From Streptomyces sp. NBC_01268 (GTDB lineage Bacteria > Actinomycetota > Actinomycetes > Streptomycetales > Streptomycetaceae): 64,000 bases of DNA. A program made the position numbers and the translations under genes. Position 1 is the stretch's first letter, and each line of letters starts with the position of its first letter. The notes beneath the pieces are model-generated. The model was not told the DNA's origin. It saw only the letters and a list, made by a program, of their open reading frames with translations, and did no database searches. The stretch covers positions 5,084,001 to 5,148,000 of the forward strand of contig NZ_CP108454.1 of assembly GCF_036240795.1 (NCBI RefSeq). Direction: 5' to 3'. Shown here one piece after another: positions 38,856 through 58,455 of the stretch.

Positions 38856-38881
38856 TCCCCCGATCTCCCGAAGGAACCCTC

Positions 38882-42543: not shown

Positions 42544-42571
42544 TTTAACTGACATCTACGCGCGTTACGAT
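42544..42571 (+). promoter_or_regulatory. bmpA promoter with nucleoside motif (site A)
   Basis: CTACGCGCGTTA (42556-42567) lies between a weak TTTAAC-like -35 near 42544 and the -10 TACGAT (42566-42571). It matches 10 of 12 positions of the motif shared with sites B, C and D in this window. Confidence 0.6.
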
Positions 42572-42629
42572 CGCCGCGAAACCAGCGCCGGAAGAGGCGC
42601 TTTCGGTCAGTCTCGAAGGGACCCTCCTC

Positions 42630-43688
42630 TTGCGCCGGATCACCAGGATCACCACGGTAGGCATCGCCTCCGCGGCCCTCGCCCTGTCCGCCACCGCCTG
42701 TGGCAAGTCGTCGACGGACTCCGGTTCGAGCTCCAGCTCCTCCGCCGGTGCCACCAAGGCCGCGATCGCGTACGACATCGGCGGTCGCGGTGACCAGTCC
42801 TTCAACGACGCCGCCTACGCGGGTCTGCAGAAGGCCGAGAGCGAGCTCGGTGTCAAGGGCGCCGAGGCCGAGCCGTCGCAGGGCGAGAGCGACGCCGACA
42901 AGGTCGCGCGCCTCACCTCGCTGGCCCGCGCCGGCAACAACCCGGTCATCGGCGTCGGCTTCTCCTACGCCCCGGCCATCGCGAAGGTCTCCAAGTCCTT
43001 CCCGAAGACCACGTTCGGCCTCATCGACGACACCTCGGTGACCGCCCCGAACATCGCCAACCTGGTCTTCAACGAGGAGCAGGGCTCCTACCTGGCCGGC
43101 GTCGCCGCCGCCAAGGCCTCCAAGACCGGCACGGTCGGCTTCATCGGCGGTGTCGAGGTTCCGCTGATCAAGAAGTTCGAGGCGGGCTTCGTCCAGGGCG
43201 TCAAGGACACCAACCCCAAGGCGAAGGTGCTCACCCAGTACCTGACCCAGCCGCCGAACTTCGACGGCTTCTCGAAGCCCGACCTCGGCAAGGCCGCCGC
43301 CCAGGGTCAGCTCGACAAGGGCGCCGACGTGATCTACGCCGCCGCCGGTCTCGCCGGCTCCGGCGCCATCGAGGCCGCCTCCGCCGCGGGCAAGTGGGCC
43401 ATCGGCGTCGACTCCGACCAGTACAAGCAGGCGGGTCTGGCCGCGTACAAGAACCAGATCCTGACCTCGGTCACCAAGGACGTCCAGGGCTCGGTCTACA
43501 ACGTGATCAAGTCGGTCAAGGACGGCAAGCCGCAGACCGGTGAGATCCGCTACGGCCTCGCCACCAACGGCGTCGGCCTGGCCGACTCCAACCCGGCGTA
43601 CGTCAAGATGACCGACGTCACCGCCGCCGTCGAGAAGGCGAAGAAGGAAATCGTCGACGGCAAGATCACGGTCAAGACCACTCCGTAA
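42630..43688 (+). CDS. bmpA: BmpA/Med-family nucleoside-binding lipoprotein
   Basis: Extracellular substrate-binding component of a nucleoside ABC transporter, 352 aa. Signal peptide ends at ATAC with lipid-modified Cys24, then a Ser-rich linker. The BMP fold is shown by YDIGGRGDQSFNDAAYAGL, PVIGVGFSYAPAI, EEQGSYLAGVAAA and GFIGGVEVPLIKKFEAGF. The TTG at 42630 is the start, with GAAGGG nine bases upstream. A strong hairpin after the gene separates it from the ATPase and permeases, so the binding protein can be made in excess. Confidence 0.92.
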   Translation: MRRITRITTVGIASAALALSATACGKSSTDSGSSSSSSAGATKAAIAYDIGGRGDQSFNDAAYAGLQKAESELGVKGAEAEPSQGESDADKVARLTSLARAGNNPVIGVGFSYAPAIAKVSKSFPKTTFGLIDDTSVTAPNIANLVFNEEQGSYLAGVAAAKASKTGTVGFIGGVEVPLIKKFEAGFVQGVKDTNPKAKVLTQYLTQPPNFDGFSKPDLGKAAAQGQLDKGADVIYAAAGLAGSGAIEAASAAGKWAIGVDSDQYKQAGLAAYKNQILTSVTKDVQGSVYNVIKSVKDGKPQTGEIRYGLATNGVGLADSNPAYVKMTDVTAAVEKAKKEIVDGKITVKTTP

Positions 43689-43714
43689 GGACATCCAGGT
43701 CACGACCTGAGCCC

Positions 43715-43754
43715 GGGCCCGGGTCCGGTGGCACCCCCCACCGGACCCGGGCCC
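43715..43754 (+). terminator. bmpA terminator/attenuator
   Basis: A perfect 16-base stem (43715-43730 with 43739-43754) and eight-base loop directly after bmpA, ahead of the ABC ATPase promoter. Confidence 0.85.
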
Positions 43755-43793
43755 CGGGCCCGTTCCCGTACGGGTTTTCACTTTTCGGCAGCG

Positions 43794-43805
43794 CTACGCG
43801 TGTAG
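43794..43805 (+). promoter_or_regulatory. nucleoside motif before ABC ATPase (site B)
   Basis: CTACGCGTGTAG, palindromic except one pair, overlaps a TAGATG-like -10 (43803-43808) with CTTTTC 16 bases upstream. It belongs to the four-site motif set. Confidence 0.6.
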
Positions 43806-43881
43806 ATGTCTCCCTGGCACGATAACTTCGCCCCGCCCTGCCCTCCCCGCTCCCACTCCTTCCGGCCAAGGAGAGTGCGTC

Positions 43882-45519
43882 ATCAACGCGTCCAGCCCCC
43901 CTGCCGTAGAACTGCACGGCATCACCAAGCGATTCCCCGGCGTCGTCGCCAACAAGGACATCGCCATCACGGTCCGCAAGGGCACCGTGCACGCCCTCAT
44001 CGGCGAGAACGGTGCCGGCAAGTCGACCCTCATGAAGATCCTCTACGGCATGCAGAAGCCGGACGAGGGCACCATCGCGGTCGACGGCGAGCAGGTCACC
44101 TTCTCCAGCCCCGGTGACGCGATCGCCCGCGGCATCGGCATGGTGCACCAGCACTTCATGCTCGCCGACAACCTGACGGTCCTGGAGAACGTCGTCCTCG
44201 GCGGCGAGAAGCTCCACGGCATCGGCGCCAAGGCGCGGAAGAAGATCCAGGAGATCTCCGACGCGTACGGTCTCGGGGTCCGCCCCGACGCCCTCCTGGA
44301 GGACCTCGGCGTCGCCGACCGGCAGCGCGTGGAGATCCTCAAGGTCCTCTACCGCGGCGCGAAGATCCTCATTCTCGACGAGCCGACCGCGGTCCTCGTC
44401 CCGCAGGAGGTCGACGCACTCTTCGACAACCTGCGCGAGCTCAAGTCCGAGGGCCTCACGGTCATCTTCATCTCGCACAAGCTGGGCGAGGTCCTGAAGG
44501 TCGCCGACGACATCACCGTCATCCGCCGGGGCACCACGGTCGGCACCGCCGACCCGAAGACCGCCACCACCAAGCAGCTCGCCGAGCTGATGGTCGGCAG
44601 CGAGCTGCCCTCCCCGGAGACCCGCGAGTCGACGGTCACCGACGTGGCGATGCTCAAGGTCGAAGGCCTGACGCTGCTGGAGAGCGGCGCCTCCGGTGCC
44701 CCGCTGACCACCGCCGCCCCGGCCGACCCGTCCGCGACCGTCACCGTGCACGAGGAGGCCGCGGTCGGCCGCAAGCTCCTCGACGACATCTCGCTCACCA
44801 TCCACAAGGGCGAGATCCTCGGCATCGCCGGTGTCGAGGGCAACGGCCAGACCGAGCTCATCGAGGCCCTGATGGGCATCGCCAGCCCCGACACCGGCGT
44901 CATCACCCTCGACGGCGACGACATCTCCAAGGTCTCGGTGCGCAAGCGCCGCGAGGGCGGCATCGGCTACATCCCCGAGGACCGGCACCGCCACGGCCTG
45001 CTCCTGGAGGCCCCGCTCTGGGAGAACCGCATCCTCGGCCACGTCACCGAGGCGCCCAACTCCAAGCGCGGCATCCTCGACCCGAAGGCCGCCCGCAAGG
45101 ACACCGAGCGGATCGTGCGCGAGTACGACGTGCGCACCCCCGGCATCGACGTCACCGCGGCCTCGCTCTCCGGCGGCAACCAGCAGAAGCTGATCGTCGG
45201 CCGCGAGATGAGCCACAACCCCAAGTTCCTGATCGCCGCCCACCCCACCCGCGGTGTGGACGTCGGCGCGCAGGCGCAGATCTGGGACGCGATCCGGGAC
45301 GCCCGCCGCGACGGCCTCGCGGTGCTGCTGATCTCGGCCGACCTCGACGAGCTGATCGGCCTCTCCGACACCCTCCGTGTCATGTACCGCGGCAAGCTGG
45401 TCGCCGACGCCGACCCCGCCACCATCACGCCCGAGCAGCTGGGATCCGCCATGACCGGCGCAGCCACCGGCCGCCTCGAAGGCACCGAAGAGCAGCCCGA
45501 AGACGGTGACGCCCGATGA
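43882..45519 (+). CDS. nucleoside ABC transporter ATPase, non-canonical start
   Basis: A 545-aa protein with two fused ABC domains. Domain 1 has GENGAGKST near residue 42, a VADRQRVEI signature and LILDEPTAVL. Domain 2 has GVEGNGQTE near residue 316, LSGGNQQKLIVGR and FLIAAHPTRGVD, the degenerate pattern typical of BmpA-linked sugar/nucleoside ATPases. The N-terminal strand PAVELHGITKRFPGVVANKDI is coded upstream of the first GTG (43987), yet no ATG, GTG or TTG exists in frame. AAGGAG (43868-43873) sits eight bases before ATC 43882, which I take as the start; GTC 43879 is the alternative. The stop overlaps the first permease. Confidence 0.88.
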   Translation: MNASSPPAVELHGITKRFPGVVANKDIAITVRKGTVHALIGENGAGKSTLMKILYGMQKPDEGTIAVDGEQVTFSSPGDAIARGIGMVHQHFMLADNLTVLENVVLGGEKLHGIGAKARKKIQEISDAYGLGVRPDALLEDLGVADRQRVEILKVLYRGAKILILDEPTAVLVPQEVDALFDNLRELKSEGLTVIFISHKLGEVLKVADDITVIRRGTTVGTADPKTATTKQLAELMVGSELPSPETRESTVTDVAMLKVEGLTLLESGASGAPLTTAAPADPSATVTVHEEAAVGRKLLDDISLTIHKGEILGIAGVEGNGQTELIEALMGIASPDTGVITLDGDDISKVSVRKRREGGIGYIPEDRHRHGLLLEAPLWENRILGHVTEAPNSKRGILDPKAARKDTERIVREYDVRTPGIDVTAASLSGGNQQKLIVGREMSHNPKFLIAAHPTRGVDVGAQAQIWDAIRDARRDGLAVLLISADLDELIGLSDTLRVMYRGKLVADADPATITPEQLGSAMTGAATGRLEGTEEQPEDGDAR

Positions 45520-46631
45520 TGAAGATCGACAAGGACAAGCTGATCATCGGGGCCGCCGGCCCCGTGCTCGCCCTGGTCACGTCCTTCGTGCTCACCGTCC
45601 TGGTGCTGCTCGCGACGGGCCTCGACCCGATCGAGCCGATCCGGCTGATGATCGAGAACGCCGGGTACTCCGACGTCCAGGTCCTCATCGTCAATCAGAC
45701 GGGGATCTACTACCTGGCGGCCCTGGCCGTGGCCATCGGCTTCCGGATGAACCTCTTCAACATCGGTGTCGAGGGCCAGTACCGCCTCGCCGCGATGGTC
45801 TCGGCGCTGGTGGGCGCCGCCGTGGACCTGCCCGGTCCGCTGCACATCCTGCTCATCGTCGTCGTCGCCATCGCGACCGGCGCGATCTGGGCCGGCATCG
45901 CGGGCATCCTGAAGACCACCCGGGGCGTCTCCGAGGTCGTCTCCACGATCATGCTCAACGCCATCACCACCTCCCTGGTGGCCTGGCTCATCCTGCCCAA
46001 GAACTTCGGCGTCCAGCCCGCCGGCTCCAACGACCTGACCACCGGTCAGATCGCCGAGTCCGGCTGGTTCCCCGGCATCGACATGGGCGACGGCGGCCAG
46101 ATCTACGGCTTCACCTTCGTCGCGCTCGCGCTCGGCGTCGTCTACTGGTTCGTCCTCAACCGCACCCGCTTCGGCTTCGACCTGCGCGCCACCGGTGAGA
46201 GCGAGTCCGCGGCCCAGGCCAGCGGCGTCGACGCCAAGAAGATGATCCTCACCGCGATGCTGATCTCGGGCGGCCTCGCCGGTCTGGCCGGCATGCCGAT
46301 CCTGCTCGGCGAGTCGCACACGTACAGCCTGGCCTTCCCGGTCAACGTCGGCTTCACCGCCATCACCGTCGCCCTACTCGGCCGCAACCACCCGGTCGGC
46401 ATCCTCTTCTCGGCCCTCCTCTTCGCGTTCCTCGACAAGGCGTCCTCGAACCTCGACGTCTCGGGTTACCCGAAGGAGATCACCCAGATCATGCAGGGCA
46501 TCATCGTGATCGCCGTGGTCGTCTCCTACGAGCTCGTCCGCCGTTACGGCACCCGTCGCCAGCAGCAGAAGGTCGGCGAGGAGCTCGCCGCCGGCGGCGC
46601 CATCAAGACCGACAAGGAGGTCTCGGCATGA
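45516..46631 (+). CDS. nucleoside ABC transporter permease 1
   Basis: BPD_transp_2-type permease, 371 aa with about nine or ten helices. FRMNLFNIGVEGQYRLAAM is the family's conserved loop, and LRATGESESAAQASGVDAKK the cytoplasmic coupling region. It forms the channel with the next gene's product. ATG 45516 overlaps the ATPase stop (ATGATG), and its own stop overlaps permease 2. Confidence 0.92.
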   Translation: MMKIDKDKLIIGAAGPVLALVTSFVLTVLVLLATGLDPIEPIRLMIENAGYSDVQVLIVNQTGIYYLAALAVAIGFRMNLFNIGVEGQYRLAAMVSALVGAAVDLPGPLHILLIVVVAIATGAIWAGIAGILKTTRGVSEVVSTIMLNAITTSLVAWLILPKNFGVQPAGSNDLTTGQIAESGWFPGIDMGDGGQIYGFTFVALALGVVYWFVLNRTRFGFDLRATGESESAAQASGVDAKKMILTAMLISGGLAGLAGMPILLGESHTYSLAFPVNVGFTAITVALLGRNHPVGILFSALLFAFLDKASSNLDVSGYPKEITQIMQGIIVIAVVVSYELVRRYGTRRQQQKVGEELAAGGAIKTDKEVSA

Positions 46632-47890
46632 GCACCGGCACTGTCGCCAAGCCGAGCGCCGCGCCCAAGAAGGCCGGACGCCGCAAGCTGACCTGGCCCT
46701 GGATCCTGCTGATCGTCGCGGCCGGCCTCGTCCTCTTCTCGCTGGTCCGGGTCGTCTCCGGCGCCGACGACCTCACCTCCGTCGGCCAGATCTCCGGCGC
46801 GCTCCAGCTCGCCGTGCCGATCGCCATGGCCGGTCTCGGCGGCCTGTGGGCCGAGCGCGCGGGCGTGGTCAACATCGGCCTCGAAGGCATGATGGTGCTC
46901 GGCACCTGGTTCGGTGCCTGGGCCGGCTACCAGTGGGGCCCGTGGACCGGCGTGCTCGTCGGCATCCTCGGCGGCGCGATCGGCGGCCTGCTGCACGCGA
47001 TCATCACCGTCACGTTCAACGTGAACCACATCGTCTCCGGTGTGGCGATCAACATCCTGGCGGTCGGCTTCACCCAGTACCTGTCGAACTTCACCTTCGA
47101 CAAGGCCGAGGGCGGCTCCTCGAAGCAGTCCCCGCGCATCGATCCGATCACCGACATCACGATCCCAGGGCTCTCCGACTGGCTGATGGACCTCCAGCAG
47201 AAGCACTGGTTCCTGATCTCGGACGTCGCCGGCATCCTCGGCGGCCTGGTCACCAACCTGTCGTTGCTGACGATCGTGGCCGCCCTGCTCATCCCGGCCA
47301 CCTGGTGGCTCCTCTGGCGCACGGCCTTCGGCCTGCGGCTGCGCTCCTGCGGTGAGAACCCGGTCGCGGCCGAGTCCCTGGGCGTCAACGTCTACAAGTA
47401 CAAGTACATCGCCGTCGTCGTCTCCGGCGGCCTCGCCGGCCTCGGCGGCGCGTTCCTCGCGATCGTCTCCACCGGCATCTACCAGGAGGGCCAGACCGGC
47501 GGCCGCGGCTACATCGGTCTCGCCGCGATGATCTTCGGCAACTGGATGCCCGGCGGCATGGCGCTCGGCGCGAGCCTGTTCGGCTTCACCGACAGCCTCA
47601 AGCTGCGCGGCGGCGCCGAGAACGTCCACGCGCTGCTGCTGCTCGTCGCGCTGCTGCTCGTGATCGCCGCGCTCTGGCAGCTGTACCGGAAGAAGTACGT
47701 GGTGGCGGCCGTCTCCGCCGGCTTCTCCGCCGCCTTCTTCCTCTGGTACTTCCTGACCGACGAGGTCCCGAGCCAGTTCGTCGACGCCGCCCCGTACATC
47801 ACCACCCTGCTCGTGCTCGCCCTCTCGGCGCAGCGCCTGCGGATGCCCAAGGCGGACGGCTTGCCGTACCGCAAGGGCGAGGGCAAGTGA
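46628..47890 (+). CDS. nucleoside ABC transporter permease 2
   Basis: Second BPD_transp_2 permease, 420 aa. AERAGVVNIGLEGMMVLGTW is the signature loop; RSCGENPVAAESLGVNVYKYKY is the coupling helix facing the ATPase. It is longer than permease 1 because of an extra-cytoplasmic insert (residues about 155-200) and a C-terminal helical extension. ATGA overlap with permease 1; the stop overlaps the cdd start (GTGA). Confidence 0.92.
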   Translation: MSTGTVAKPSAAPKKAGRRKLTWPWILLIVAAGLVLFSLVRVVSGADDLTSVGQISGALQLAVPIAMAGLGGLWAERAGVVNIGLEGMMVLGTWFGAWAGYQWGPWTGVLVGILGGAIGGLLHAIITVTFNVNHIVSGVAINILAVGFTQYLSNFTFDKAEGGSSKQSPRIDPITDITIPGLSDWLMDLQQKHWFLISDVAGILGGLVTNLSLLTIVAALLIPATWWLLWRTAFGLRLRSCGENPVAAESLGVNVYKYKYIAVVVSGGLAGLGGAFLAIVSTGIYQEGQTGGRGYIGLAAMIFGNWMPGGMALGASLFGFTDSLKLRGGAENVHALLLLVALLLVIAALWQLYRKKYVVAAVSAGFSAAFFLWYFLTDEVPSQFVDAAPYITTLLVLALSAQRLRMPKADGLPYRKGEGK

Positions 47891-48291
47891 CGACCCAGCT
47901 CCCGGAGGCCGACTGGGACCTGCTCCGGGAGACCGCCCGCGAGGCGATGTCCCGCGCGTACGCCCCGTACTCGGGCTTCCCGGTCGGTGCGGCGGCGCTC
48001 GTGGACGACGGGCGCGTGGTCTCCGGCTGCAACGTGGAGAACGCCTCGTTCGGCCTCGCCCTGTGCGCCGAGTGCGGCCTGGTGTCGCAGCTCCAGGCGA
48101 CCGGGGGCGGCCGGCTGACGCACTTCGTGTGCGTGGACGGCAGCGGCGGCCCGCTGGTGCCGTGCGGCCGCTGCCGGCAGCTGCTGTACGAGTTCGGGGG
48201 ACCCGAGCTCGTCCTGGAGACGCCCGCCGGCCGCAGCACGCTGGCGGAGATGCTGCCGCAGGCCTTCGGCCCGGACCACCTGAGCAAGTAG
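47887..48291 (+). CDS. cdd: cytidine deaminase
   Basis: Zinc enzyme (134 aa, homotetramer class) deaminating cytidine and deoxycytidine to uridine and deoxyuridine. YAPYSGFPVGAA, CNVENASFG, LCAECGL (the catalytic C-A-E) and PCGRCRQLLYEF with the two further zinc cysteines are intact. The GTG start overlaps the permease stop, so imported nucleosides meet the enzyme from the same mRNA. A hairpin at 48299-48332 follows. Confidence 0.95.
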   Translation: MTTQLPEADWDLLRETAREAMSRAYAPYSGFPVGAAALVDDGRVVSGCNVENASFGLALCAECGLVSQLQATGGGRLTHFVCVDGSGGPLVPCGRCRQLLYEFGGPELVLETPAGRSTLAEMLPQAFGPDHLSK

Positions 48292-48298
48292 CACGACG

Positions 48299-48332
48299 GA
48301 GCGGCCCTTCCGCCACCATGGAGGGGCCGCTC
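48299..48332 (+). terminator. cdd terminator/attenuator
   Basis: GAGCGGCCC (48299-48307) pairs with GGGCCGCTC (48324-48332), extended by T-G, T-A and C-G pairs, between cdd and deoA. Confidence 0.75.
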
Positions 48333-48356
48333 CCGCCTTCCCACCCGTATCACCCT

Positions 48357-48368
48357 CTATGCGCGTAG
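48357..48368 (+). promoter_or_regulatory. nucleoside motif before deoA (site C)
   Basis: CTATGCGCGTAG, palindromic except one pair, flanked by T and A (14-mer TCTATGCGCGTAGA). It ends just before the AGAAAGAGG ribosome site of deoA and could block transcription or its start. Confidence 0.6.
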
Positions 48369-48382
48369 AAAGAGGCTCCACC

Positions 48383-49660
48383 ATGGACGTCATCTCCGTC
48401 ATCCGCACGAAGCGGGACAAGGGCGAGCTGAGCCCCGAGCAGATCGACTGGGTCATCGACGCCTACACCCGCGGCGAGGTCGCCGACGAGCAGATGTCCG
48501 CCCTGGCCATGGCGATCCTGCTCAACGGCATGAACCGGGACGAGATCGCCCGCTGGACCGCGGCGATGATCGCCAGCGGCGAGCGCATGGACTTCTCCTC
48601 CCTCTCGCGCCCCACCTCCGACAAGCACTCCACCGGTGGCGTCGGCGACAAGATCACCCTGCCGCTCGCCCCGCTGGTCGCCGCGTGCGGCGCGGCCGTG
48701 CCGCAGCTCTCCGGCCGGGGCCTCGGCCACACCGGCGGCACCCTCGACAAGCTGGAGTCCATCCCGGGCTGGCGGGCGCTGCTCTCCAACGAGGAGATGC
48801 TGCACGTCCTGGACACCACCGGCGCGGTCATCTGCGCGGCGGGCGACGGCCTGGCCCCCGCGGACAAGAAGCTCTACGCGCTCCGTGACGTGACCGGCAC
48901 GGTGGAGGCCATCCCGCTGATCGCCTCCTCGATCATGTCGAAGAAGATCGCCGAGGGTACCGGCTCGCTCGTCCTCGACGTGAAGGTCGGCACCGGCGCC
49001 TTCATGAAGAACATCGAGGACGCCCGTGAGCTGGCCTCCACGATGGTGCAGCTCGGCACCGACAGCGGTGTGAAGACCGTCGCGCTGCTCACCGACATGT
49101 CGACCCCGCTCGGCCTCACCGCGGGCAACGCCCTGGAGGTCCGCGAGTCCGTCGAGGTCCTCGCGGGCGGCGGTCCCCAGGACGTCGTCGACCTCACCAT
49201 CGCCCTCGCGCGCGAGATGCTGACCGCGGCCGGCATCAAGGACGCCGACCCGGCGAAGGCCCTCGCGGACGGCTCCGCGATGGACGTCTGGCGCCGCATG
49301 ATCGCGGCCCAGGGCGGCGACCCGGACGCGACCCTCCCGGTCGCCCGCGAGCAGCACGTCATCACCGCCCCGTCCTCCGGCGTCCTGACCCGTCTCGACG
49401 CCTACGACATCGGCATCGCCGCCTGGCGCCTGGGCGCCGGCCGCGCCCGCAAGGAGGACCCGGTGCAGGCCGGCGCGGGCGTCGAGCTGCACGCCAAGCC
49501 GGGCGACACGGTCACGGCGGGCCAGCCCCTGCTGACCCTCCACACGGACACCCCGGAGAAGTTCGACTACGCCCTGAAGTCCCTGACGGCGGCGTGGGAC
49601 ATCGCCCCGGCCGGCACCTCGTTCACGGCGAACCCGATCGTGCTGGACCGCATCGCGTAG
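48383..49660 (+). CDS. deoA: thymidine phosphorylase
   Basis: Pyrimidine-nucleoside phosphorylase, 425 aa, cleaving thymidine/deoxyuridine with phosphate to base and deoxyribose-1-phosphate. The family signature SGRGLGHTGGTLDKLESIPG is intact, as are KHSTGGVGDK (phosphate site) and SKKIAEGTGSLVLDVKVG. ATG 48383 follows AGAAAGAGG; an in-frame ATG at 48359 lies inside the regulatory motif and is unlikely. It acts after the deaminase in the salvage route. Confidence 0.95.
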   Translation: MDVISVIRTKRDKGELSPEQIDWVIDAYTRGEVADEQMSALAMAILLNGMNRDEIARWTAAMIASGERMDFSSLSRPTSDKHSTGGVGDKITLPLAPLVAACGAAVPQLSGRGLGHTGGTLDKLESIPGWRALLSNEEMLHVLDTTGAVICAAGDGLAPADKKLYALRDVTGTVEAIPLIASSIMSKKIAEGTGSLVLDVKVGTGAFMKNIEDARELASTMVQLGTDSGVKTVALLTDMSTPLGLTAGNALEVRESVEVLAGGGPQDVVDLTIALAREMLTAAGIKDADPAKALADGSAMDVWRRMIAAQGGDPDATLPVAREQHVITAPSSGVLTRLDAYDIGIAAWRLGAGRARKEDPVQAGAGVELHAKPGDTVTAGQPLLTLHTDTPEKFDYALKSLTAAWDIAPAGTSFTANPIVLDRIA

Positions 49661-49702
49661 CCAGGAGATCGCCCCTGGCATGTGCCAGTGACACCTTCGG
49701 GT

Positions 49703-49736
49703 GAACGGGACCGGTAGCCCCCCGCCGGTCCCGTTC
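49703..49736 (+). terminator. deoA terminator
   Basis: GAACGGGACCGG (49703-49714) pairs perfectly with CCGGTCCCGTTC (49725-49736), loop of ten. Confidence 0.8.
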
Positions 49737-49776
49737 GGCATGCTGGGATCGGTGACGACCGATTGAGGAGCACACC

Positions 49777-50367
49777 ATGAGCGCACTCACCGTCGACCAC
49801 TCGTCCCACGGGTACGGGTGGAGCGATCTCGTCCGGCTCTGGGAGGGGACGGACGCACCCGAGGGCTGCAAGGTGGAGATCATCGAGGGGATCATCACCG
49901 TGTCACCGCCGCCGTCCAACAAGCACAACTACATCGCCGACAGGATCCAACGGGCGCTCTACAGGGTCATTCCCGACGACTGGGGGATCTATCAGACGCT
50001 CGGTACGACAGTCCCGTCCCGCCAGGGGCTGTTCATCCCTGACCTGGCCGTAGTGCCTCAGAAAGTCCTGCACGGAGAAGGCGGCCACTTCGTCGCTGCC
50101 GACGGTGCCGAGATGATCGTAGAGATCACGTCGCCGTCGAATGCGGCCACCGACCGCATCACGAAAGCCGCCGGATACGCGCATGCCGGAGTGCCGCTCT
50201 ACCTACTCGTCGACTCCTTCGCGCCCGGCGGGCCCACCGTCACCCTCTACGGCGAGCCGAAGGGCGACGTCTACCGCGTCCTGAGCGCCGTCCCCTTCGG
50301 CGAGGGCATCCACCTCCCCGCCCCCTTCGACCTCACCCTCGACACCGCCGACTTCCCCGTCAGCTGA
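49777..50367 (+). CDS. Uma2-family protein
   Basis: A 196-aa member of the Uma2 (DUF820) family, which has a restriction-endonuclease-like fold: KVEIIEGIITVSPPP, FIPDLAVV and EMIVEITSPSN hold the E...D...ExT residues expected for a PD-(D/E)XK metal site. Streptomyces carry many paralogues of unknown purpose. Codon use is a little less GC-biased than the neighbours, especially near 49900-50200, hinting at later acquisition. GAGGAG precedes the ATG. It overlaps the convergent HAD gene by eight bases. Confidence 0.82.
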   Translation: MSALTVDHSSHGYGWSDLVRLWEGTDAPEGCKVEIIEGIITVSPPPSNKHNYIADRIQRALYRVIPDDWGIYQTLGTTVPSRQGLFIPDLAVVPQKVLHGEGGHFVAADGAEMIVEITSPSNAATDRITKAAGYAHAGVPLYLLVDSFAPGGPTVTLYGEPKGDVYRVLSAVPFGEGIHLPAPFDLTLDTADFPVS

Positions 50368-51007
50368 GCAGCCCCACCAGGTCCCGCATGTCGTCGAAGA
50401 CCACCGTGCCCGGCCCCGCCAGGCGGTCGGCCCGGGTGAGCCCCCCGGCGTAGCCGAAGGCGCGCATGCCGGCGGCGCGGGCGGCCTGGACGCCGTACGG
50501 GCTGTCCTCGACGACCGCGCAGCGCTCGGGCGGGACGCCCATCGTGGCGGCGGCGTGCAGGAAGAGGTCGGGTGCCGGCTTCGGGTGGGGGACGTGGCGG
50601 GCGCTGAAGAGGCGGCCCTCGAAGCGGTCGAGGAGGCCCGTGCGGGTGAGGTTGGCGCGGATGCTCTCGGGGCTGCCGTTGGAGGCGAGGCAGAAGGGGA
50701 CGTCGAGGGCGTCGAGGACGTCCGTGATGCCCTCGACCACGGTCAGCTCCGCGTCCAGCGCCTCCTCGTAGCGGTGCCGGAAGGCGTGCTGCCAGTCCGG
50801 GGCCAGGGTGCGGCCGGCCCGCTCCTCGACGAGCGTCGTGAGGCGCTTGTGGGAGACGCCGATGAAGAGCTCGGCCATCTCCGTCTCGGTGAACTCCGCG
50901 CCCACCTCCGCGAAGACCTCCCGGTCCACCCGGCAGTAGACGCGCTCGCTGTCGACCAGAACACCGTCACAGTCGAAGATCACCAGTTCGACACGATCAT
51001 GAGTCAT
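50360..51007 (-). CDS. HAD-superfamily phosphatase, beta-phosphoglucomutase type
   Basis: A 215-aa HAD hydrolase: IFDCDGVLVDSE (nucleophile Asp), CLASNGS (motif II), KPAPDLFLHAA (Lys motif III) and VVEDSPYGV (motif IV) all present, with a four-helix cap between motifs I and II. Members are sugar-phosphate phosphatases or phosphoglucomutases; the substrate is unknown. Its end overlaps the Uma2 gene tail-to-tail. Confidence 0.87.
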   Translation of the reverse strand: MTHDRVELVIFDCDGVLVDSERVYCRVDREVFAEVGAEFTETEMAELFIGVSHKRLTTLVEERAGRTLAPDWQHAFRHRYEEALDAELTVVEGITDVLDALDVPFCLASNGSPESIRANLTRTGLLDRFEGRLFSARHVPHPKPAPDLFLHAAATMGVPPERCAVVEDSPYGVQAARAAGMRAFGYAGGLTRADRLAGPGTVVFDDMRDLVGLLS

Positions 51008-51042
51008 GGGCCGAGCCTAAGGGGCGCCGCAAGAGCGGCGCG

Positions 51043-51348
51043 ATGAGTTACGGGGGCGGCGGCGGTCTGCCTGGTGTGGACACCCATCGCACTCTCGAAC
51101 TGCGGCTCACGGGCCGCACCGATCCGGACGAGCTCGGGCGGCTCTGCGCCCTCCTCGCCGCCGCCGAGCCCACCGACGTGGTCTGCGAGCTCGGCGGCCT
51201 CGGCCGCCGGGCCGACCTCGGCGTCGTGGACGCCCTGGCCCGGCTGCGGCTGGCCGCCCGGCGGCGCGGGCACCGGCTCACCTTCCGGGGAGCCGGGCCC
51301 GAGCTGCGCGCCGTGCTCGGCCTCGTCGGCCTCGACGGACTGCTCTGA
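51043..51348 (+). CDS. STAS-like domain protein, 101 aa
   Basis: Small protein with alternating strands and helices resembling STAS/anti-anti-sigma domains (HRTLELRLTGRTDPDELGRLCALL ... DVVCELGGLG ... VDALARLRLAARRRGHRLTFRGAGPELR). The phosphorylatable Ser of true anti-anti-sigma factors is not evident (Gly/Arg in its place), so a switching role is doubtful. Its stop lies three bases from the end of the convergent sigma factor gene. Confidence 0.6.
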   Translation: MSYGGGGGLPGVDTHRTLELRLTGRTDPDELGRLCALLAAAEPTDVVCELGGLGRRADLGVVDALARLRLAARRRGHRLTFRGAGPELRAVLGLVGLDGLL

Positions 51349-51351
51349 GGG

Positions 51352-52311
51352 CTACGCCTCCAGCCGCGGCGGCAGGTCGAACAGCGGGAACCAGCGCTTG
51401 GTGTCCAGGAAGAAGTCCATCCCGCCGACCTTCCCGTCGTGCAGCTGGAGCACGATCAGCGCCCACGGGGCGAAACCGCCCTCCGGGTCCGGGTGGTAGT
51501 GCGCGAAGGCCGGCGAACCGTTCGCCACGGTCGGCACCAGCTTCGAGCCCCGGCACACCTCGCCGACCCCGAGCATCCAGCCCACGATGTCCTCGTGGCC
51601 GCGCAGCCACAGGTCGTAAGGCGGCATGGACATCGTCGCGTCCTCGTGGAGGAGCGCGGTCAGCGCCTGCATGTCGTAGCCCTCGAAGGCCGCCACGTAC
51701 CGGTCGAGGAGCGCCTTCTGCTCCTCGTCCAGCGGGTCCGCCGCGTCCGAGGCGGCCGGCGCCTGCTCGGCCAGCGTCGCCCGGGCCCGCTGGAGCGCGC
51801 TGTTGACGGAGGCGACGCTCGTGTCGAGCAGCTCGGACACCTCGCTCGCCTTCCACGCGAGGACCTCGCGCAGGATCAGCACCGCCCGCTGCTTCGGCGG
51901 CAGGTGCTGGAGCGCCGCCACGAAGGCGAGCCGCACGGTCTCCCGGGAGACCGCCGTCTCCGCGGGGTCGGCCACCGAGGGCAGCACCCGCCCGTCCGGC
52001 ACCGGCTCCAGCCAGGTGATCTCGGGGCGCTCGTTGAGCCGGGCCTGCGCCACCGGCGTCGGATCCGTGAGATCCATCGGACGGGCCCGGCGGTTGCCCG
52101 CGTTGAGGGAGTCGAGGCACACGTTGGTGGCGATCCGGTACAGCCAGGAGCGCAGCGAGGAACGCCCCTCGAAGGAGTCGAGCGCACGCCAGGCGCGCAC
52201 CATCGTGTCCTGCACCGCGTCCTCCGCCTCGAAGGCGGATCCCAGCATCCGGTAGCAGTAACCCGTCAGCTCCGTACGGTACTTCTCCAGATCGTCGGTC
52301 AGCACGTCCAT
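51352..52311 (-). CDS. ECF sigma factor with C-terminal SnoaL-like domain
   Basis: A 319-aa ECF sigma factor. Region 2 (YRTELTGYCYRMLGSAFEAEDAVQDTMVRAW) and region 4 (LPPKQRAVLILREVLAWKASEV, HTH TSVASVNSALQRAR) are followed by a linker and a SnoaL-type domain (about 205-319, LDRYVAAFEGYDMQALTALLHEDATMSMPP ... WLRGHEDIVGWM). In such factors the extra domain regulates activity without a separate anti-sigma. ATG 52311 is preferred; GTG 52320 would add three residues. Confidence 0.88.
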   Translation of the reverse strand: MDVLTDDLEKYRTELTGYCYRMLGSAFEAEDAVQDTMVRAWRALDSFEGRSSLRSWLYRIATNVCLDSLNAGNRRARPMDLTDPTPVAQARLNERPEITWLEPVPDGRVLPSVADPAETAVSRETVRLAFVAALQHLPPKQRAVLILREVLAWKASEVSELLDTSVASVNSALQRARATLAEQAPAASDAADPLDEEQKALLDRYVAAFEGYDMQALTALLHEDATMSMPPYDLWLRGHEDIVGWMLGVGEVCRGSKLVPTVANGSPAFAHYHPDPEGGFAPWALIVLQLHDGKVGGMDFFLDTKRWFPLFDLPPRLEA

Positions 52312-52405
52312 CGGCCCCACCCCACTCGCCCCTCACCGGCACCGGGGTTCGGAGCCGATGAGGGGAAGCTATCGCAGGGCACCGACAACGCGGGGCCTTC
52401 CGGCG

Positions 52406-53101
52406 TCACGTGCCCGGCTTGCGCCCGTACACGTACACGTCGTCACCGTTCCTGAGCAGGTTCCAGTACGCCTTGGCGTCGGCGGACCGCATGTTCACGC
52501 AGCCGCCCGAACCCGGCGGGTTCCACATGGACTTGGTGGTCGAGTGGAAGGCCTGCCCGCCGTCGAAGAACTGGGCGTACGGCATCGAGACGTTGTACAG
52601 CGTCGACCAGTGGTTGATGTTGCGCCAGTAGATCTTCTTCGCGCCGGTACGGGTCGGCGTGCTCGCCTTGCCCGTGCGCACCGGCACCGGGCCGAACTTC
52701 AACCGGGAGCCGTCCTGGATCCAGGTGAGCTGCCGGGTCAGGTCGACGCAGGCGATCCGGCCCTTGTTCGTCGGACACTTGCGGTCCTTGTTGGGATTGG
52801 TCCCGGCCGCCCGCTGCGCCAGCATGGTCGACATCGTGCGCCAGGTGACCGTACCGGCGTACCCCTGCGTCGGGGTGATCCCGTGCTTGCCCTGGAAGGC
52901 CTGGATCGCCTTGCAGTCGGCGAGCGACTGGCGCCCGTCGACCGGCCGGCCCAGGAACTTCTCCACCTGCTTCTGGTACGGGCCGGTCGTCACGTTGCAG
53001 GACGCCGCCGCCGCGGGCGCGGTGCCCAGCGCCACTGTGGTGGGTACCACCAGCGCCGTGACCGCGAGGCCGATGCCGGCCCTCCTCCGTATCGCGTTCA
53101 T
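52406..53101 (-). CDS. secreted L,D-transpeptidase family protein
   Basis: A 231-aa exported protein. Signal peptide ends near APAAAA; a PG-binding-like segment (YQKQVEKFLGRPVDGRQSLADCKAIQAFQ) precedes a YkuD domain. The catalytic motif reads GSGGCVNMR with Cys201: the usual His of (S/T)HGC is Gly here, so the chemistry may differ or an alternative base is used. GGGGGAG lies nine bases before ATG 53101, so I reject the TTG three codons earlier. Confidence 0.85.
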   Translation of the reverse strand: MNAIRRRAGIGLAVTALVVPTTVALGTAPAAAASCNVTTGPYQKQVEKFLGRPVDGRQSLADCKAIQAFQGKHGITPTQGYAGTVTWRTMSTMLAQRAAGTNPNKDRKCPTNKGRIACVDLTRQLTWIQDGSRLKFGPVPVRTGKASTPTRTGAKKIYWRNINHWSTLYNVSMPYAQFFDGGQAFHSTTKSMWNPPGSGGCVNMRSADAKAYWNLLRNGDDVYVYGRKPGT

Positions 53102-53167
53102 GATCGTCAACTCCCCCTTGAGTCCTGTCCCTTACGACGCTCGGGGGAGTCGAACAGTTGCAGCGGG

Positions 53168-54439
53168 TCAGCAGGCGACCGGCAGCCGTCGGGCCTCGAT
53201 GCGGCGGGCCTCGACCCGCGCGCTGTGCGAGCCGTAGAGGGTGACCGACACGACGCCGAGCACCGCCACCAGACCGATCAGGACCGTCCCGGCCCAGCCG
53301 CCCGCGTGGAAGGCGATGGCGCCGAGCGTGCCGCCCGCGCTGCTGCCGAGGTAGTACGCGGACTGGTAGAGCGCCGAGGCCTGCGCGCGGCCGGTCTTGG
53401 CCGTGCGGCTCACCGAGGAGGAGGCGACCGCGTGCCCGGCGAAGAAGCCGGCCGTGATCAGCACCAGGCCCGCGAGGACGGCGGGCAGCGAGTCGGCGAG
53501 CGAGAGCAGCAGGCCCGCCGCCGTCGTGGAGACGGCCAGGTACAGCGCCCCGCGGCGGCCCATCCGGCCGACCAGCCGGCCCGCGGCGGCCGAGGAGACC
53601 GTGCCGACCAGGTAGACCAGGAAGATCGAGCCGATCACGCCCTGCGGGAGCGAGAACGGCGCCTCGACCAGCCGGTAGCCGATCACCGTGTACACGGCGC
53701 CGAACACCGTCATGAACAGCGCGCCGATCACGTAGAGCCGCATCAGCAGCGGGTCCGCGAGGTGCCCCCGGACGGTCCGGCCGAGCGCCTTCGGGTTCAG
53801 CGAACCGGGCGTGAAGTGCCGGGCCTTGGGCAGCAGCGCCCGGAAGGCGATCGCGCAGACCACGGCCATCAGGCCGACGGCCGCCAGAGCCGCCCGCCAG
53901 CCCCACAACTGCGCGACCCAGCCGGTGACGATCCGCCCGCTCATGCCGCCGATGGAGTTGCCCGCCACGAACAGGCCGATCGCGGCGATCAGCGCCTTCG
54001 GCCGCACCTCCTCGGCGAGGAAGGCCATCGCCGAGGCCGGCACTCCGGCCAGCGCCGCGCCCTGCACCGCGCGCAGCACGACCAGGCTCTCCAGGCTGGG
54101 GGCGAGCGGGACGAGGAGTCCGACGGCGACGGCGACCGCGAGCGAGGCCGTCATCATCGAGCGCCGCCCGAAGCGCTCGGACAGGGCGCTGAGGGGGAGG
54201 ACGCACAGGGCGAGCGCGCCGGTCGCGGCGGACACCGTCCAGGAGGCGGCCGACGCGGTGGCGCCGAACTCGGCCGAGACGGCGGGGAGGAGGGCCTGGG
54301 TGGAGTAGAGGAGGGCGAAGGTGGCCACTCCCGCGGCGAACAGCGCGAGGCTCATCCGGCGGTAGCCGGAGGCACCGGGGGAGAGGCGGGAATCGGCGGC
54401 CGGGCTGGTGGCGGCCGCCTTGGTACTGGCGGAAGGCAT
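53168..54439 (-). CDS. MFS transporter, YnfM/DHA1 type
   Basis: Major facilitator of 423 aa with 12 helices; LSALSERFGRRSMM and GRLVGRMGRRGALY are the two conserved cytoplasmic loops. Likely drug or metabolite export; substrate unknown. Divergent from a LysR regulator across 62 bases, the usual layout for a LysR-controlled transporter. The intergenic TTCATGC ... GCACGGAA (about 54461-54482) is an imperfect dyad that could be part of the LysR site. Confidence 0.87.
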   Translation of the reverse strand: MPSASTKAAATSPAADSRLSPGASGYRRMSLALFAAGVATFALLYSTQALLPAVSAEFGATASAASWTVSAATGALALCVLPLSALSERFGRRSMMTASLAVAVAVGLLVPLAPSLESLVVLRAVQGAALAGVPASAMAFLAEEVRPKALIAAIGLFVAGNSIGGMSGRIVTGWVAQLWGWRAALAAVGLMAVVCAIAFRALLPKARHFTPGSLNPKALGRTVRGHLADPLLMRLYVIGALFMTVFGAVYTVIGYRLVEAPFSLPQGVIGSIFLVYLVGTVSSAAAGRLVGRMGRRGALYLAVSTTAAGLLLSLADSLPAVLAGLVLITAGFFAGHAVASSSVSRTAKTGRAQASALYQSAYYLGSSAGGTLGAIAFHAGGWAGTVLIGLVAVLGVVSVTLYGSHSARVEARRIEARRLPVAC

Positions 54440-54501
54440 GTCTCGAACGTAGGACGCCCCGGTTCATGCGTCCAATGCACGGAACTGCTGTAATCGTTCC
54501 C

Positions 54502-55455
54502 ATGCTGCATGAGTACAGGTCACAGCCTCGCCTGTCACCGAACAGTAACGAAGAAGACATGGGACTGCTGCTCGCGCCGCGGCTCGCGTACTTCGCTGCC
54601 GTCGCCCGGCACGAGCACGTGACCCGGGCCGCCGCCGAGATGGGCGTACCCCAGTCGACCCTCTCGCGGGCCGTGGTCCGGCTGGAGGAGGACCTCGGCG
54701 TCGCCCTGTTCGCCCGCCGCGGCCGCACGGTCTCGCTCACCCCGGCCGGCCGCCGCTTCCTCGCCTCCGCCGAGCGGGCGCTCGCCGAGGTCGAGAAGGC
54801 CGCCGACTCGGTACGGGCCGACGCCGACCCCACCGCAGGGCGGGTCGCGTTCGGCTTCCTGCACACCATGGGCTCCGAGACCGTGCCCGGCCTCATCCGG
54901 GCCTTCCGGGTCGACCACCCCCGGGTCCGCTTCACCCTGGTGCAGAACTACGGCGAGGCGATGATCGAACGGCTCCGCGCCGGCGAGCTCGACCTGTGCC
55001 TGACCTCGCCCGTGCCGGACGCGCCCGACCTGGTCGGCCGCCGCCTCGACGAACAGCGGCTGCGGCTCGTCGTCCCCGACGACCACCGCCTCGCGGGCCG
55101 CAAGCGCATCCGCCTGGCCGAGGCGGCCGACGAGACCTTCGTGACCCTGGAGCCCGGGTACGGGCTGCGCCGCATCACCGACGACCTGTGCGCCCAGGCC
55201 GGGTTCACGCCCCGGATCGCCTTCGAGGGCGAGGAGGCCGAGACCCTGCGCGGCCTGGTCGCCGCGGGTCTCGGCGTGGCCCTGCTGCCCCCGCCGGCCG
55301 TCGCCCGCCCGGGCGTCGTCGAGCTGGGCGTGACCTCCCCGCGGGCGGCCCGCGAGATCGGCGTGGCCTGGCTCGACGGGCACCCGGACACGCCTCCGGT
55401 GGCCGCCTTCAAGAAGTTCCTGCTGGGCAAGCGGGGCAGCCTGCTGCCCGAGTGA
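54502..55455 (+). CDS. LysR-family transcriptional regulator
   Basis: A 317-aa LysR regulator: N-terminal HTH (LAYFAAVARHEHVTRAAAEMGVPQSTLSRAVVRLEEDLGVALFARRGR) and C-terminal periplasmic-binding-type effector domain (GRVAFGFLHTMGSETVPGLI ... GELDLCLTSPVPD). I start at ATG 54502 (MLHEYRSQ), as in related proteins; ATG 54559 would start directly before the HTH. It probably controls the divergent MFS gene and its own promoter. Confidence 0.88.
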   Translation: MLHEYRSQPRLSPNSNEEDMGLLLAPRLAYFAAVARHEHVTRAAAEMGVPQSTLSRAVVRLEEDLGVALFARRGRTVSLTPAGRRFLASAERALAEVEKAADSVRADADPTAGRVAFGFLHTMGSETVPGLIRAFRVDHPRVRFTLVQNYGEAMIERLRAGELDLCLTSPVPDAPDLVGRRLDEQRLRLVVPDDHRLAGRKRIRLAEAADETFVTLEPGYGLRRITDDLCAQAGFTPRIAFEGEEAETLRGLVAAGLGVALLPPPAVARPGVVELGVTSPRAAREIGVAWLDGHPDTPPVAAFKKFLLGKRGSLLPE

Positions 55456-55526
55456 AAGCGGGCGGCGGCGCGTGACGGCGGCGGGACGGGCCGGGGGCCC
55501 GTCCCGCGGTCCGCGTCCGGCCGGTC

Positions 55527-56300
55527 CTACCGCAGCGAGCGTCCGAAGCCCGCCGCCAGCGGCATCCGCAGCCCCAGCGGCGGCGGCGCGGCCATCGCGT
55601 CCGCGAGCGGCCGGCTCTGCGGGTGCGCGAAGAGCGCGGACAGGACGAAGTCGGCCGCCAGAGCGCCGACTTCGTCGTGGTACTGGCGCAGTGCGTGCCC
55701 GTCGGCGTGCACCTCGAAGCGGCAGGTGTCCCGGTTGGACTTCTTGGCCCGCTCGGCGAAGCGGTAGGACAGCTCGGGGTCGGTCCGGGCGTCGTTCGTC
55801 CCGTGCACGATCAGCACCCGCCGCCCGACGAGCTGCCGCACCGGCTCCGGCTCGGCCGCCCGGTCCTCCTCGGGCAGCCAGGGCGCGAGCGCCAGGACCG
55901 CCGCCACCGCCGTGTGCCCGGCCGCCCGCAGGGCCGCCCGGCCTCCCATCCCGCGACCCAGGAGGCAGACCGGGACGTCTCCGTAGCGCCGTACCGCCTC
56001 GGACACCGCCCAGGAGGCGTCCCCGGCCAGCTGGGCGTCCGTGCCGTTCCAGCCGCGGCCGCGGTAGCGGACCACGTGCGCGACCAGGCCGTCGGCCCGG
56101 CCCGCGCGGGCCAGCCGGCGCGCCAGCGGCAGCGCCGTCGCGTGGGCGAGGGGCGAGGGGCCCCGTGCGGAGGAGGTCTCGCCGTCCGGGAGCAGCAGGA
56201 CCACCCCGCCCGCCTCGGTGACCGGGGTCGTCGCTCCTGCGGGCCGCCCGAGCCGGGGTGTCCGGGAGCCGGCCGTCCCTACGAGTGCGTAGTGCGCCAT
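55527..56300 (-). CDS. alpha/beta-hydrolase-fold protein, altered nucleophile motif
   Basis: A 257-aa dienelactone-hydrolase-like protein. The nucleophile elbow, normally GxSxG, reads GRGMGG, so the Ser is Gly (codon GGG confirmed). The later acid (HGTNDARTDPE) and His (HADGHALRQY) positions look normal. It may be a non-catalytic paralogue or use other chemistry. No signal peptide. Confidence 0.7.
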   Translation of the reverse strand: MAHYALVGTAGSRTPRLGRPAGATTPVTEAGGVVLLLPDGETSSARGPSPLAHATALPLARRLARAGRADGLVAHVVRYRGRGWNGTDAQLAGDASWAVSEAVRRYGDVPVCLLGRGMGGRAALRAAGHTAVAAVLALAPWLPEEDRAAEPEPVRQLVGRRVLIVHGTNDARTDPELSYRFAERAKKSNRDTCRFEVHADGHALRQYHDEVGALAADFVLSALFAHPQSRPLADAMAAPPPLGLRMPLAAGFGRSLR

Positions 56301-56397
56301 GGCAGAACAGTCTCAGAAGCCGAGGTGTACGCCATCCGTACGCGCGGTCACTGTTACGTATCGCCCGGCGCGCCCGTCGGCCGAACGGCCGCTTCCC

Positions 56398-57195
56398 TCA
56401 CGTCCGTTCGAAGCAGTGCACGCTGCCGACCGGGACGAAGCCCCGCCGCGCGTACCAGTGGCGCGGCCAGTCGTCGGCCAGCGCGATCAGGAAGGTGGTG
56501 GTGCAGCCGGCCTCGGCGCCCATCCGCAGCGCGGTGTCCAGGACGACGCCCGCGTGGCCCTGCCCCAGGTGGGAGGCGGCCGTGACGAGGTCCTCGATCT
56601 GGGCGACGCCGACGGCCGGGTCCACGTACAGGTCGGCCCAGGAGGCCGGCTCGCCGAACTCGTCGTGCGAGGCGAGGAAGCGCACGTCGGCGGCGCCCCG
56701 GCGGCGTGCCGCGCGCCGCTCCACCAGGGTGTGGATCACCTCGTCCGGGGCGTCCGGCAGGAACCGCCGCTGGCTGTCGGCGAGCGCCCCGCGCAGCGCC
56801 GGCAGCTCCACCTCGCGGGCCCCGCCGCGCTCGGGCAGCGGACCGGTGTGGCGCATCACGACCGTGCGCGTGAGGGCGTACCCGGCCCGGGCCAGCGGCT
56901 CGGCGCACGCCTCCCCGGTCGCCGCGTCCAGCACGTACACGGCCCGGTGCGCCAGCGGGGCCATCGCCGCGTCGACGTGGCCGGGCAGCGCCTCGGGGTC
57001 GGTCGGTCCGTCGATCAGGACGTGGTTGTTCCCGTAGGACAGCGCGTACGTGTCGTCGAGCGCGGCGAACCCGCCGGGCACCGGCAGGATCCGCTCGGCC
57101 TGCCGGCGCGTGAACGCGGACAGGAAGGCGTGGATCCGGCGCAGTTCGGCGGCGTCGGAGGCGGGGTTGCGGGGTGCGGGCGCGGCGGGCGGCAT
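56398..57195 (-). CDS. GNAT-family acetyltransferase
   Basis: A 265-aa protein with a C-terminal GNAT domain: the acetyl-CoA region is IEDLVTAASHLGQGHAGVVLDTAL (the Q/RxxGxG/A-like turn is LGQGHA), then TTTFLIALADDWPRHWYARRGFVPVG with the usual Tyr near the end. The N-terminal 120 residues may be a second, degenerate GNAT half. Substrate unknown. Divergent from add across the 105 bases that hold motif site D. Confidence 0.8.
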   Translation of the reverse strand: MPPAAPAPRNPASDAAELRRIHAFLSAFTRRQAERILPVPGGFAALDDTYALSYGNNHVLIDGPTDPEALPGHVDAAMAPLAHRAVYVLDAATGEACAEPLARAGYALTRTVVMRHTGPLPERGGAREVELPALRGALADSQRRFLPDAPDEVIHTLVERRAARRRGAADVRFLASHDEFGEPASWADLYVDPAVGVAQIEDLVTAASHLGQGHAGVVLDTALRMGAEAGCTTTFLIALADDWPRHWYARRGFVPVGSVHCFERT

Positions 57196-57272
57196 ACCGC
57201 CAGGCTAGGGCGCCGGGCGGCCCGTGCGCACCGGAAATTCGGGCCCTGCGAAAGGCGCGGAAGGGGCGCGCT

Positions 57273-57300
57273 CTACGCGCGTAGGCGCTAGAGTGCCGAA
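57273..57300 (+). promoter_or_regulatory. add promoter with nucleoside motif (site D)
   Basis: Perfect palindrome CTACGCGCGTAG (57273-57284), then -10 TAGAGT (57289-57294) and six bases to ATG 57301. If transcription starts at the ATG, the palindrome occupies -28 to -17, a repressor position. Best copy of the four-site set. Confidence 0.7.
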
Positions 57301-58455
57301 ATGACGAGCCAGATCCCCAGCACCCCCGCCGCGGACCAGATCCGCCGTGCCCCGAAGGTGCTTCTCCACGACCACCTCGACGGCGGTCTGCGCCCCGGCA
57401 CGATCATCGAACTCGCCCGCGCCCAGGGCTATGAGAGCCTCCCCGAGACCGAGCCCGACAAGCTGGGTATCTGGTTCCGGGAGGCCGCCGACTCCGGCTC
57501 CCTGGAGCGCTACCTGGAGACCTTCGCACACACCTGCGCCGTCATGCAGACCCGCGAGGCCCTGGTCCGGGTCGCCGCCGAGTGCGCCGTCGACCTCGCC
57601 GAGGACGGCGTCGTCTACGCCGAGGTCCGCTACGCCCCCGAGCAGCACCTGGAGGGCGGTCTCACCCTCGAAGAGGTCGTCGAGGCGGTCAACGAGGGCT
57701 TCCGCGAGGGCGAGCGCCTGGCCAGGGCGAACGGCCACCGCATCCGCGTCGGCGCCCTGCTCACCGCGATGCGGCACGCCGCCCGCGCCCTGGAGATCGC
57801 CGAACTCGCCAACCGCTACCGGGACACCGGGGTCGTCGGCTTCGACATCGCGGGCGCCGAGGCGGGCTTCCCGCCCACCCGCCACCTCGACGCCTTCGAG
57901 TACCTGAAGCGGGAGAACAACCACTTCACCATCCACGCCGGCGAGGCCTTCGGCCTGCCGTCGATCTGGCAGGCCCTCCAGTGGTGCGGCGCCGACCGGC
58001 TCGGCCACGGTGTGCGCATCATCGACGACATCGAGGTCGCCGACGACGGCTCGGTCACCCTCGGCCGGCTCGCCGCGTACGTGCGGGACAAGCGGATCCC
58101 GCTGGAGATGTGCCCCACCTCCAACCTGCAGACCGGCGCGGCCGACTCGTACAAGCACCACCCCATCGGGCTGCTCCGCAAGCTGCACTTCCGGGCCACC
58201 GTCAACACGGACAACCGCCTGATGAGCGGCACCAGCATGAGCCGGGAATTCGAATTCCTTGTCGAGGCATTCGACTACACGCTCGACGACATGCAGTGGT
58301 TCACGGTCAATGCGATGAAATCAGCGTTCATTCCTTTCGATGAACGCCTCGCAATGATCAACGACGTGATCAAGCCCGGCTATGCCGAGCTGAAGTCCGA
58401 ATGGCTGTTCCAGCAGACGGCCACGACCAGCGACTCTTCCCGCCAGGCGAGCTGA
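57301..58455 (+). CDS. add: adenosine deaminase
   Basis: Zinc-dependent deaminase, 384 aa, converting adenosine or deoxyadenosine to inosine. [14 protein letters not shown] (zinc His pair), HAGEAFG (catalytic Glu), LGHGVRI and [10 protein letters not shown], then [10 protein letters not shown] (zinc Asp) are intact. It starts from a leaderless promoter. The last third (58240-58400) uses noticeably more A/T third positions (for example GAATTCGAATTC), a local dip without loss of motifs. It completes the nucleoside salvage set with cdd and deoA. Confidence 0.95.

Follow-up and report, generated by a model that had tools for sequence, protein, structure and literature searches.

A probable family-wide purine and nucleoside regulon in Streptomycetaceae and its candidate LacI-family regulator

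Introduction

The closest described systems for the control of purine and nucleoside genes are the regulons of PurR, CytR, and DeoR in Escherichia coli, that of PurR in Bacillus subtilis, and those of XdhR and PecS in Streptomyces. CytR acts together with CRP at half-sites that are weak and vary in spacing, and E. coli DeoR senses pentose phosphate made from nucleosides. A 64,000-nt stretch of Streptomyces sp. NBC_01268 (hereafter the window, to whose positions the site coordinates refer) carries four operator-like 12-mers, in front of bmpA, the ATPase gene of an ABC importer, deoA, and add. On the evidence of sequence comparison, the regulon to which they point is almost certainly real. The best explanation as a whole, with a rough probability of 0.55, is that the four sites are part of a family-wide purine and nucleoside regulon of the Streptomycetaceae under a LacI-family repressor.

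An original prediction, made from the letters of the window, had assigned the four sites to a nucleoside salvage regulon. It knew of no described Streptomyces regulator with this site, and none was found in the open-access literature covered. Work on iModulons has reportedly been conducted in S. albidoflavus. No paper on the site or the regulon was found in the open-access literature searched, including the available parts of PMC3224704, PMC4848846, and PMC3737563, subscription papers being mostly uncovered. A study of S. coelicolor iModulons (PMC11538686) includes one for purines, and its supplementary motif tables may already contain the motif. A connection between purine metabolism and the production of antibiotics by Streptomyces is drawn in the title of a review (Sivapragasam and Grove 2019, cited in PMC9739823). 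With a single operator, eleven promoters in this genome, and the exact form in 60 of 61 genomes of the family, this link becomes testable.

Conserved sites in front of nucleoside genes

All four sites, and the genes that follow them, lie on the forward strand, the sites at the positions originally given. That of bmpA, CTACGCGCGTTA (42556..42567), lies upstream of the gene for a nucleoside-type ABC substrate-binding protein (42630..43688, PF02608) and is kept in 76/76 orthologous upstream regions; that of the importer genes, CTACGCGTGTAG (43794..43805), precedes the ATPase gene (43882..45519, PF00005) and is kept in 70/77. The add site, CTACGCGCGTAG (57273..57284), in front of the adenosine deaminase gene (57301..58455, PF00962), is kept in 59/60. 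The deoA site, CTATGCGCGTAG (48357..48368), in front of the gene for pyrimidine nucleoside phosphorylase (48383..49660; PF00591, PF07831, and PF02885), is the weakest of the four, with 35/80. Sites were counted as kept at 10 or more of 12 matches, and only upstream regions of sufficient length were counted; the deoA search retained its 80 top-ranking loci, almost all of them from Streptomyces and a few from related genera. The importer permease genes perm1 (45516..46631) and perm2 (46628..47890; both PF02653) and the cytidine deaminase gene cdd (47887..48291, PF00383), also on the forward strand, have no site of their own and provide internal controls, with the site in 0/79 upstream regions of each. 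First-order random copies of the upstream regions reached at least 10 of 12 in 20 of 1465 cases. Conservation upstream of orthologous genes had been set beforehand as the test, and these counts bear the prediction out; since the loci come from close relatives, the counts are not independent.

The exact 12-mer is present in 13/13 Streptomyces genomes and in 6/135 other genomes of the class. Within the family Streptomycetaceae, it was found in 60 of 61 genomes and in 16 of 17 genera, and is missing in G185. The word TCTACNCGNGTAGA, whose single place in this genome is the purS site, occurs in 11/13 Streptomyces and 4/135 other genomes. None of the exact sites in the six genomes outside the family was read as preceding a nucleoside gene; an IMP-dehydrogenase-like open reading frame (ORF; by eye) lies 2.4 kb from one of them, in G075. 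Second add paralogs and a duplicated bmpA carry the site too. In locus L133 (G116:C1:2766985 and 2768318), two tandem bmpA copies have each their own CTACGCGCGTTAATCTGC site.

Counting the word alone proves nothing; exactness, place, and conservation decide whether the site is real. The exact palindrome occurs at four places in the 8.5-Mb genome and its reversed control at none, about one exact site being expected from base composition by our estimate. Three of the four lie within 22.3 kb, before add, deoC, and pnp, and the ABC and deoA sites fall inside the same 36 kb as these. The exact site at 2671407, between hypothetical genes, was taken as noise because about one chance site is expected. 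Copies of CTGTGCGCGTAG were also rejected; they have identical context in the four loci examined (L013, L014, L017, and L018) and were taken as a repeated, probably rRNA, sequence. Several other near-matches lie inside genes or before unrelated genes, so that the word alone is no proof of regulon membership. The literature covered contains a crystal structure of d(CTACGCGCGTAG) (PMC8063756), which was regarded as a coincidence, and the same letters in PMC8510090 and PMC12624138.

The promoter placements of the original prediction, checked by eye or by coordinates for add, bmpA, and deoA, proved correct only in outline. On inspection by eye, a -10-like TAGAGT directly follows the add site, and the site of bmpA overlaps TACGAT. 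The deoA site adjoins the ribosome site, its end standing 14 nt ahead of the ATG at 48383, and at deoC the distance from site to start is about 20 nt. An E. coli-type promoter scan found no promoter in the bmpA/ABC stretch, so promoter positions are tentative. The location of the sites near core promoters suggests a repressor, and the regulator probably acts as one.

The probable start codon of the ABC ATPase gene, at 43882, is ATC, which codes for isoleucine and is preceded by a ribosome site (AGGAGAGTGCGYC-ATC). The 57 codons up to the next stop contain no in-frame ATG, GTG, or TTG in the window. This ATC is in frame in 64 of 79 relatives, 40 of which lack any usual start codon in the 15 codons before it and the 25 after it; the same pattern was seen by eye in 12 more of the 79 and not in 3 (Kitasatospora, Yinghuangia). 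Upstream of the cluster, at 36400-39800 of the window, lie ORFs resembling sialic-acid-type sugar synthesis genes (NeuB- and CMP-sugar synthetase-like, by eye).

Extent of the regulon and shape of the site

Further putative targets were found in this genome from sites with up to 1-2 mismatches. They comprise deoC, pnp with pmm, two 5'-nucleotidase genes, the gene of a purine-type permease of the Xan_ur_permease family, purS-purQ-purL (purSQL), and a CN_hydrolase gene with an aminotransferase-like ORF and a gene for an amidohydrolase behind it. We take the CN_hydrolase group to represent beta-ureidopropionase and pyrimidine breakdown. Among Streptomyces loci, the site is kept at CN_hydrolase in 27/30 and at purS in 30/30, which places de novo purine genes, a feature of PurR-like regulons, among the targets. 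The 5'-nucleotidase site is kept in 29/30 loci, two of which (L258 and L259) are of the second type; the second 5'-nucleotidase has the site in 19/19 relatives as well as in this genome. For deoC and pnp, all 26 promoters in 13 genomes, which were chosen by exact matches, have the site with at most one mismatch (25 exact). An exact site precedes purN (Formyl_trans_N) in genomes of two other genera. A secreted protein has a one-mismatch site here and, in one other genus, the exact form in the four genomes G189, G201, G219, and G225. Its family carries FDN(S/T)K(A/G)ETAGNADWII and has only a weak InhA-like MAM match (L329:5663-7189; L412-L414, L416). The word shared across the window genes has stood, and its restriction to nucleoside salvage has proved too narrow, as purSQL, the purine-type permease, the two 5'-nucleotidases, and the CN-hydrolase carry it too.

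The consensus of eight gene sets weighted equally is TCTACGCGCGTAGA. Deviations from it are gene-specific: in the second half, bmpA has TTA and the first nucleotidase mostly TTG or TCG; in the first half, deoA has ATG, and purS has forms such as CCC or CTC. These fixed, gene-specific weak halves suggest tuned affinity. A central CG is found in the commonest forms of 7/8 gene sets, and such a center, with the 14-bp symmetry, would be compatible with a LacI-type operator.

A dimeric transcription factor would bind TCTACGCGCGTAGA and most likely repress by covering the core promoter, and it might release the DNA in response to purines or nucleosides as signals of need or supply. The uptake targets of this factor would be bmpA and the ABC importer, for nucleosides, and the permease, probably for purine bases, with the two 5'-nucleotidases freeing nucleosides outside the cell. 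Breakdown would be represented by add, deoA, deoC, pnp-pmm, and the beta-ureidopropionase-like CN-hydrolase, and de novo purine synthesis by purSQL.

Candidate regulator

The original prediction proposed a repressor of LacI or similar type and stated that no such regulator is encoded in the window. The regulator is indeed not there, and the LysR gene of the window (54466-55455) has no known tie to the site. A survey of the LacI family yielded 18 genes over the cut-off. Only one of them has an 11/14 match in its promoter near the start, and in one further gene an 11/14 match lies at -210. The former gene adjoins glnR and lies about 8 kb from the second nucleotidase gene. As the LacI gene SCO4158 is placed downstream of glnR in the accessible part of PMC9739823, the candidate is named SCO4158-like; the same part mentions for the LacI protein only a possible effect on glnR and pigment production.

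The candidate contains PF00356, PF13377, and PF00532 over the cut-off, corresponding to the N-terminal LacI helix-turn-helix (HTH) and a periplasmic-binding-like sensor, and 57 of the 60 residues of the HTH region are invariant in 17 rows, in which its own sequence occurs twice. A weak site is present in its own promoter in 19/19 loci (its own and those of 18 relatives), anchored on the right half GCGTAGA. The left half reaches at least 4/6 matches in 19/19 loci, in 8 different versions, with a background of 2.8%, and within 70 nt every other register falls short of half of the 19 loci. In relative G167, the site reads TCTGCACGCGTAGA. The SCO4158-like protein seems to bind its own promoter via a weaker site, and it is the best candidate for the regulator, at somewhat less than even odds.

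Its match to PurR structures has an E value of about 1e-43. The PurR pocket positions are Arg190, Thr192, Phe221, and Asp275. The pocket is partly kept, with an aromatic residue at 73-74 and Asp275; Thr192 is replaced by Pro and Phe221 by Tyr in all 17 rows. By its corepressor pocket residues, the candidate does not come out as an ortholog of E. coli PurR.

Weighing of explanations

Several findings weigh against a purine and nucleoside regulon under this LacI protein. In the window, 5 matches at up to 2 mismatches were counted against 4.22 expected (shuffle mean), a number at chance level, and the match at 18036, among these five, is unrelated. Across the genome, loose matches show no enrichment: at one mismatch the palindrome has 23 forward and 26 reverse places against 51 and 42 for the reversed pattern, and at up to 3/14 mismatches 99 places against 119 for the reversed control. 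The site is missing at 45/80 deoA loci and before purN of this genome, and none of the 27 CN-hydrolase loci has a central CG, all having TG or GG. As to the regulator, the test of the LacI promoter was post hoc, chosen after the site had been seen, and the right half of the site overlaps a -10-like TAGACT, so that promoter constraint explains part of its conservation. The LacI gene was not found for G159 in the stretches fetched. The best PDB matches of the candidate are CcpA and RbsR, followed by PurR, and PurR Arg190 is Thr in all 17 rows.

The chance-level window count and the lack of enrichment of loose matches would also suit a core promoter element or a chance GC-rich word in place of an operator, as would the several sites that overlap or adjoin -10-like sequences. 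However, the distance between the first base of the site and the start codon varies among the targets between about 25 and 160 nt, the exact word is largely limited to one bacterial family, and it is kept before genes of one metabolic area while being absent at neighboring genes; such an origin is highly improbable. The main rival is a DeoR-family protein encoded about 2.4 kb from pnp, presumably SCO4920-like by gene order, which would read the site, sense a nucleoside-derived pentose phosphate, and repress the regulon. DeoR domains were found in it, its gene is present in 13/13 Streptomyces genomes at 95-100% identity and, in 8/8 genomes retrieved for three further genera of the family, its distance from pnp is 2-4 kb, and deoC, deoA, and pnp are targets of the E. 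coli DeoR type. De novo purine targets fit DeoR poorly, however, and its promoter holds no site (best 8-9 of 14 in 13/13 Streptomyces), an own operator being typical though not obligatory. In seven stretches from other families, the neighbors of DeoR are sugar-type ABC genes in four and, by eye, a galM-like gene in two; in none does it adjoin pnp or deoC. Control by DeoR is quite unlikely. The promoter of the DeoR-family gene (L020:18998-19984, L294-L306) holds a AACAACTTCTGTTATTCGGCGCAAACTGCTGAAAGCAG-like element conserved in Streptomyces, a possible DeoR operator.

Less doubtful than DeoR, though still unlikely, is the reading of the site by another conserved transcription factor outside those examined, as LacI is the sole family surveyed as a family and, of the places at 3 mismatches, those listed were covered. 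Among the examined places at no more than one mismatch (4892940 and some repeat copies left out), the only regulator genes behind a site are those of a MarR and a TetR protein. The MarR protein (L024) was rejected as the regulator, with no match at E 1e-35 in 15 of 61 genomes, all of which have the motif. At L024:5990 (G000:C1:5651990), GCTACGCACGTAGA lies between a secreted lysozyme-like ORF (by eye) and the MarR gene; a site of 10-11 of 12 is kept there in 14/30 Streptomyces and may be a further target or an unrelated MarR operator. The label SCO5413-like was dropped for this protein, which has no PDB match at E 1e-20, because Sco5413 has a solved structure, according to a title in the references of PMC9739823. 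For the SCO4158-like LacI protein, the preferred candidate, the analysis provides a target list and a first guess of function.

Comparison with known systems

In Streptomyces itself, XdhR and PecS share the field of purine metabolism and the genus; they differ in belonging to the TetR and MarR families and in having xanthine dehydrogenase targets, a comparison made by description only. The B. subtilis PurR regulon likewise joins purine synthesis with the uptake of purine bases and nucleosides, but PurR there is of another protein family and its operators are long PurBoxes, again compared by description only. E. coli DeoR has deoC, deoA, and pnp-type targets in common with the present regulon, whereas its operator is different and the promoter of the present DeoR candidate lacks a site. 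The CytR regulon contains nucleoside uptake and breakdown genes and is governed by a LacI-family protein; unlike it, the present regulon has a compact 12-14 bp palindrome and includes purine synthesis.

The E. coli PurR regulon resembles that described here in the LacI family of the candidate, in the central CG of most sites, and in its purine synthesis targets. In contrast to it, the genes for breakdown, the importer, and the 5'-nucleotidases share their operator here with purSQL, the operator sequence differs, the corepressor residue Arg190 is not kept, and the candidate is nearer by sequence to CcpA and RbsR. Tentatively, and with slightly more doubt than attaches to its candidacy, the SCO4158-like LacI protein might be a purine and nucleoside master regulator of the Streptomycetaceae, doing the work of E. 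coli PurR, CytR, and DeoR, from extracellular 5'-nucleotidases to de novo synthesis; its 14-bp operator would be new, and its ligand probably neither hypoxanthine nor guanine. The regulon spans the family, and its kind is familiar; the operator is uncharacterised, and the candidate for its regulator can be tested.

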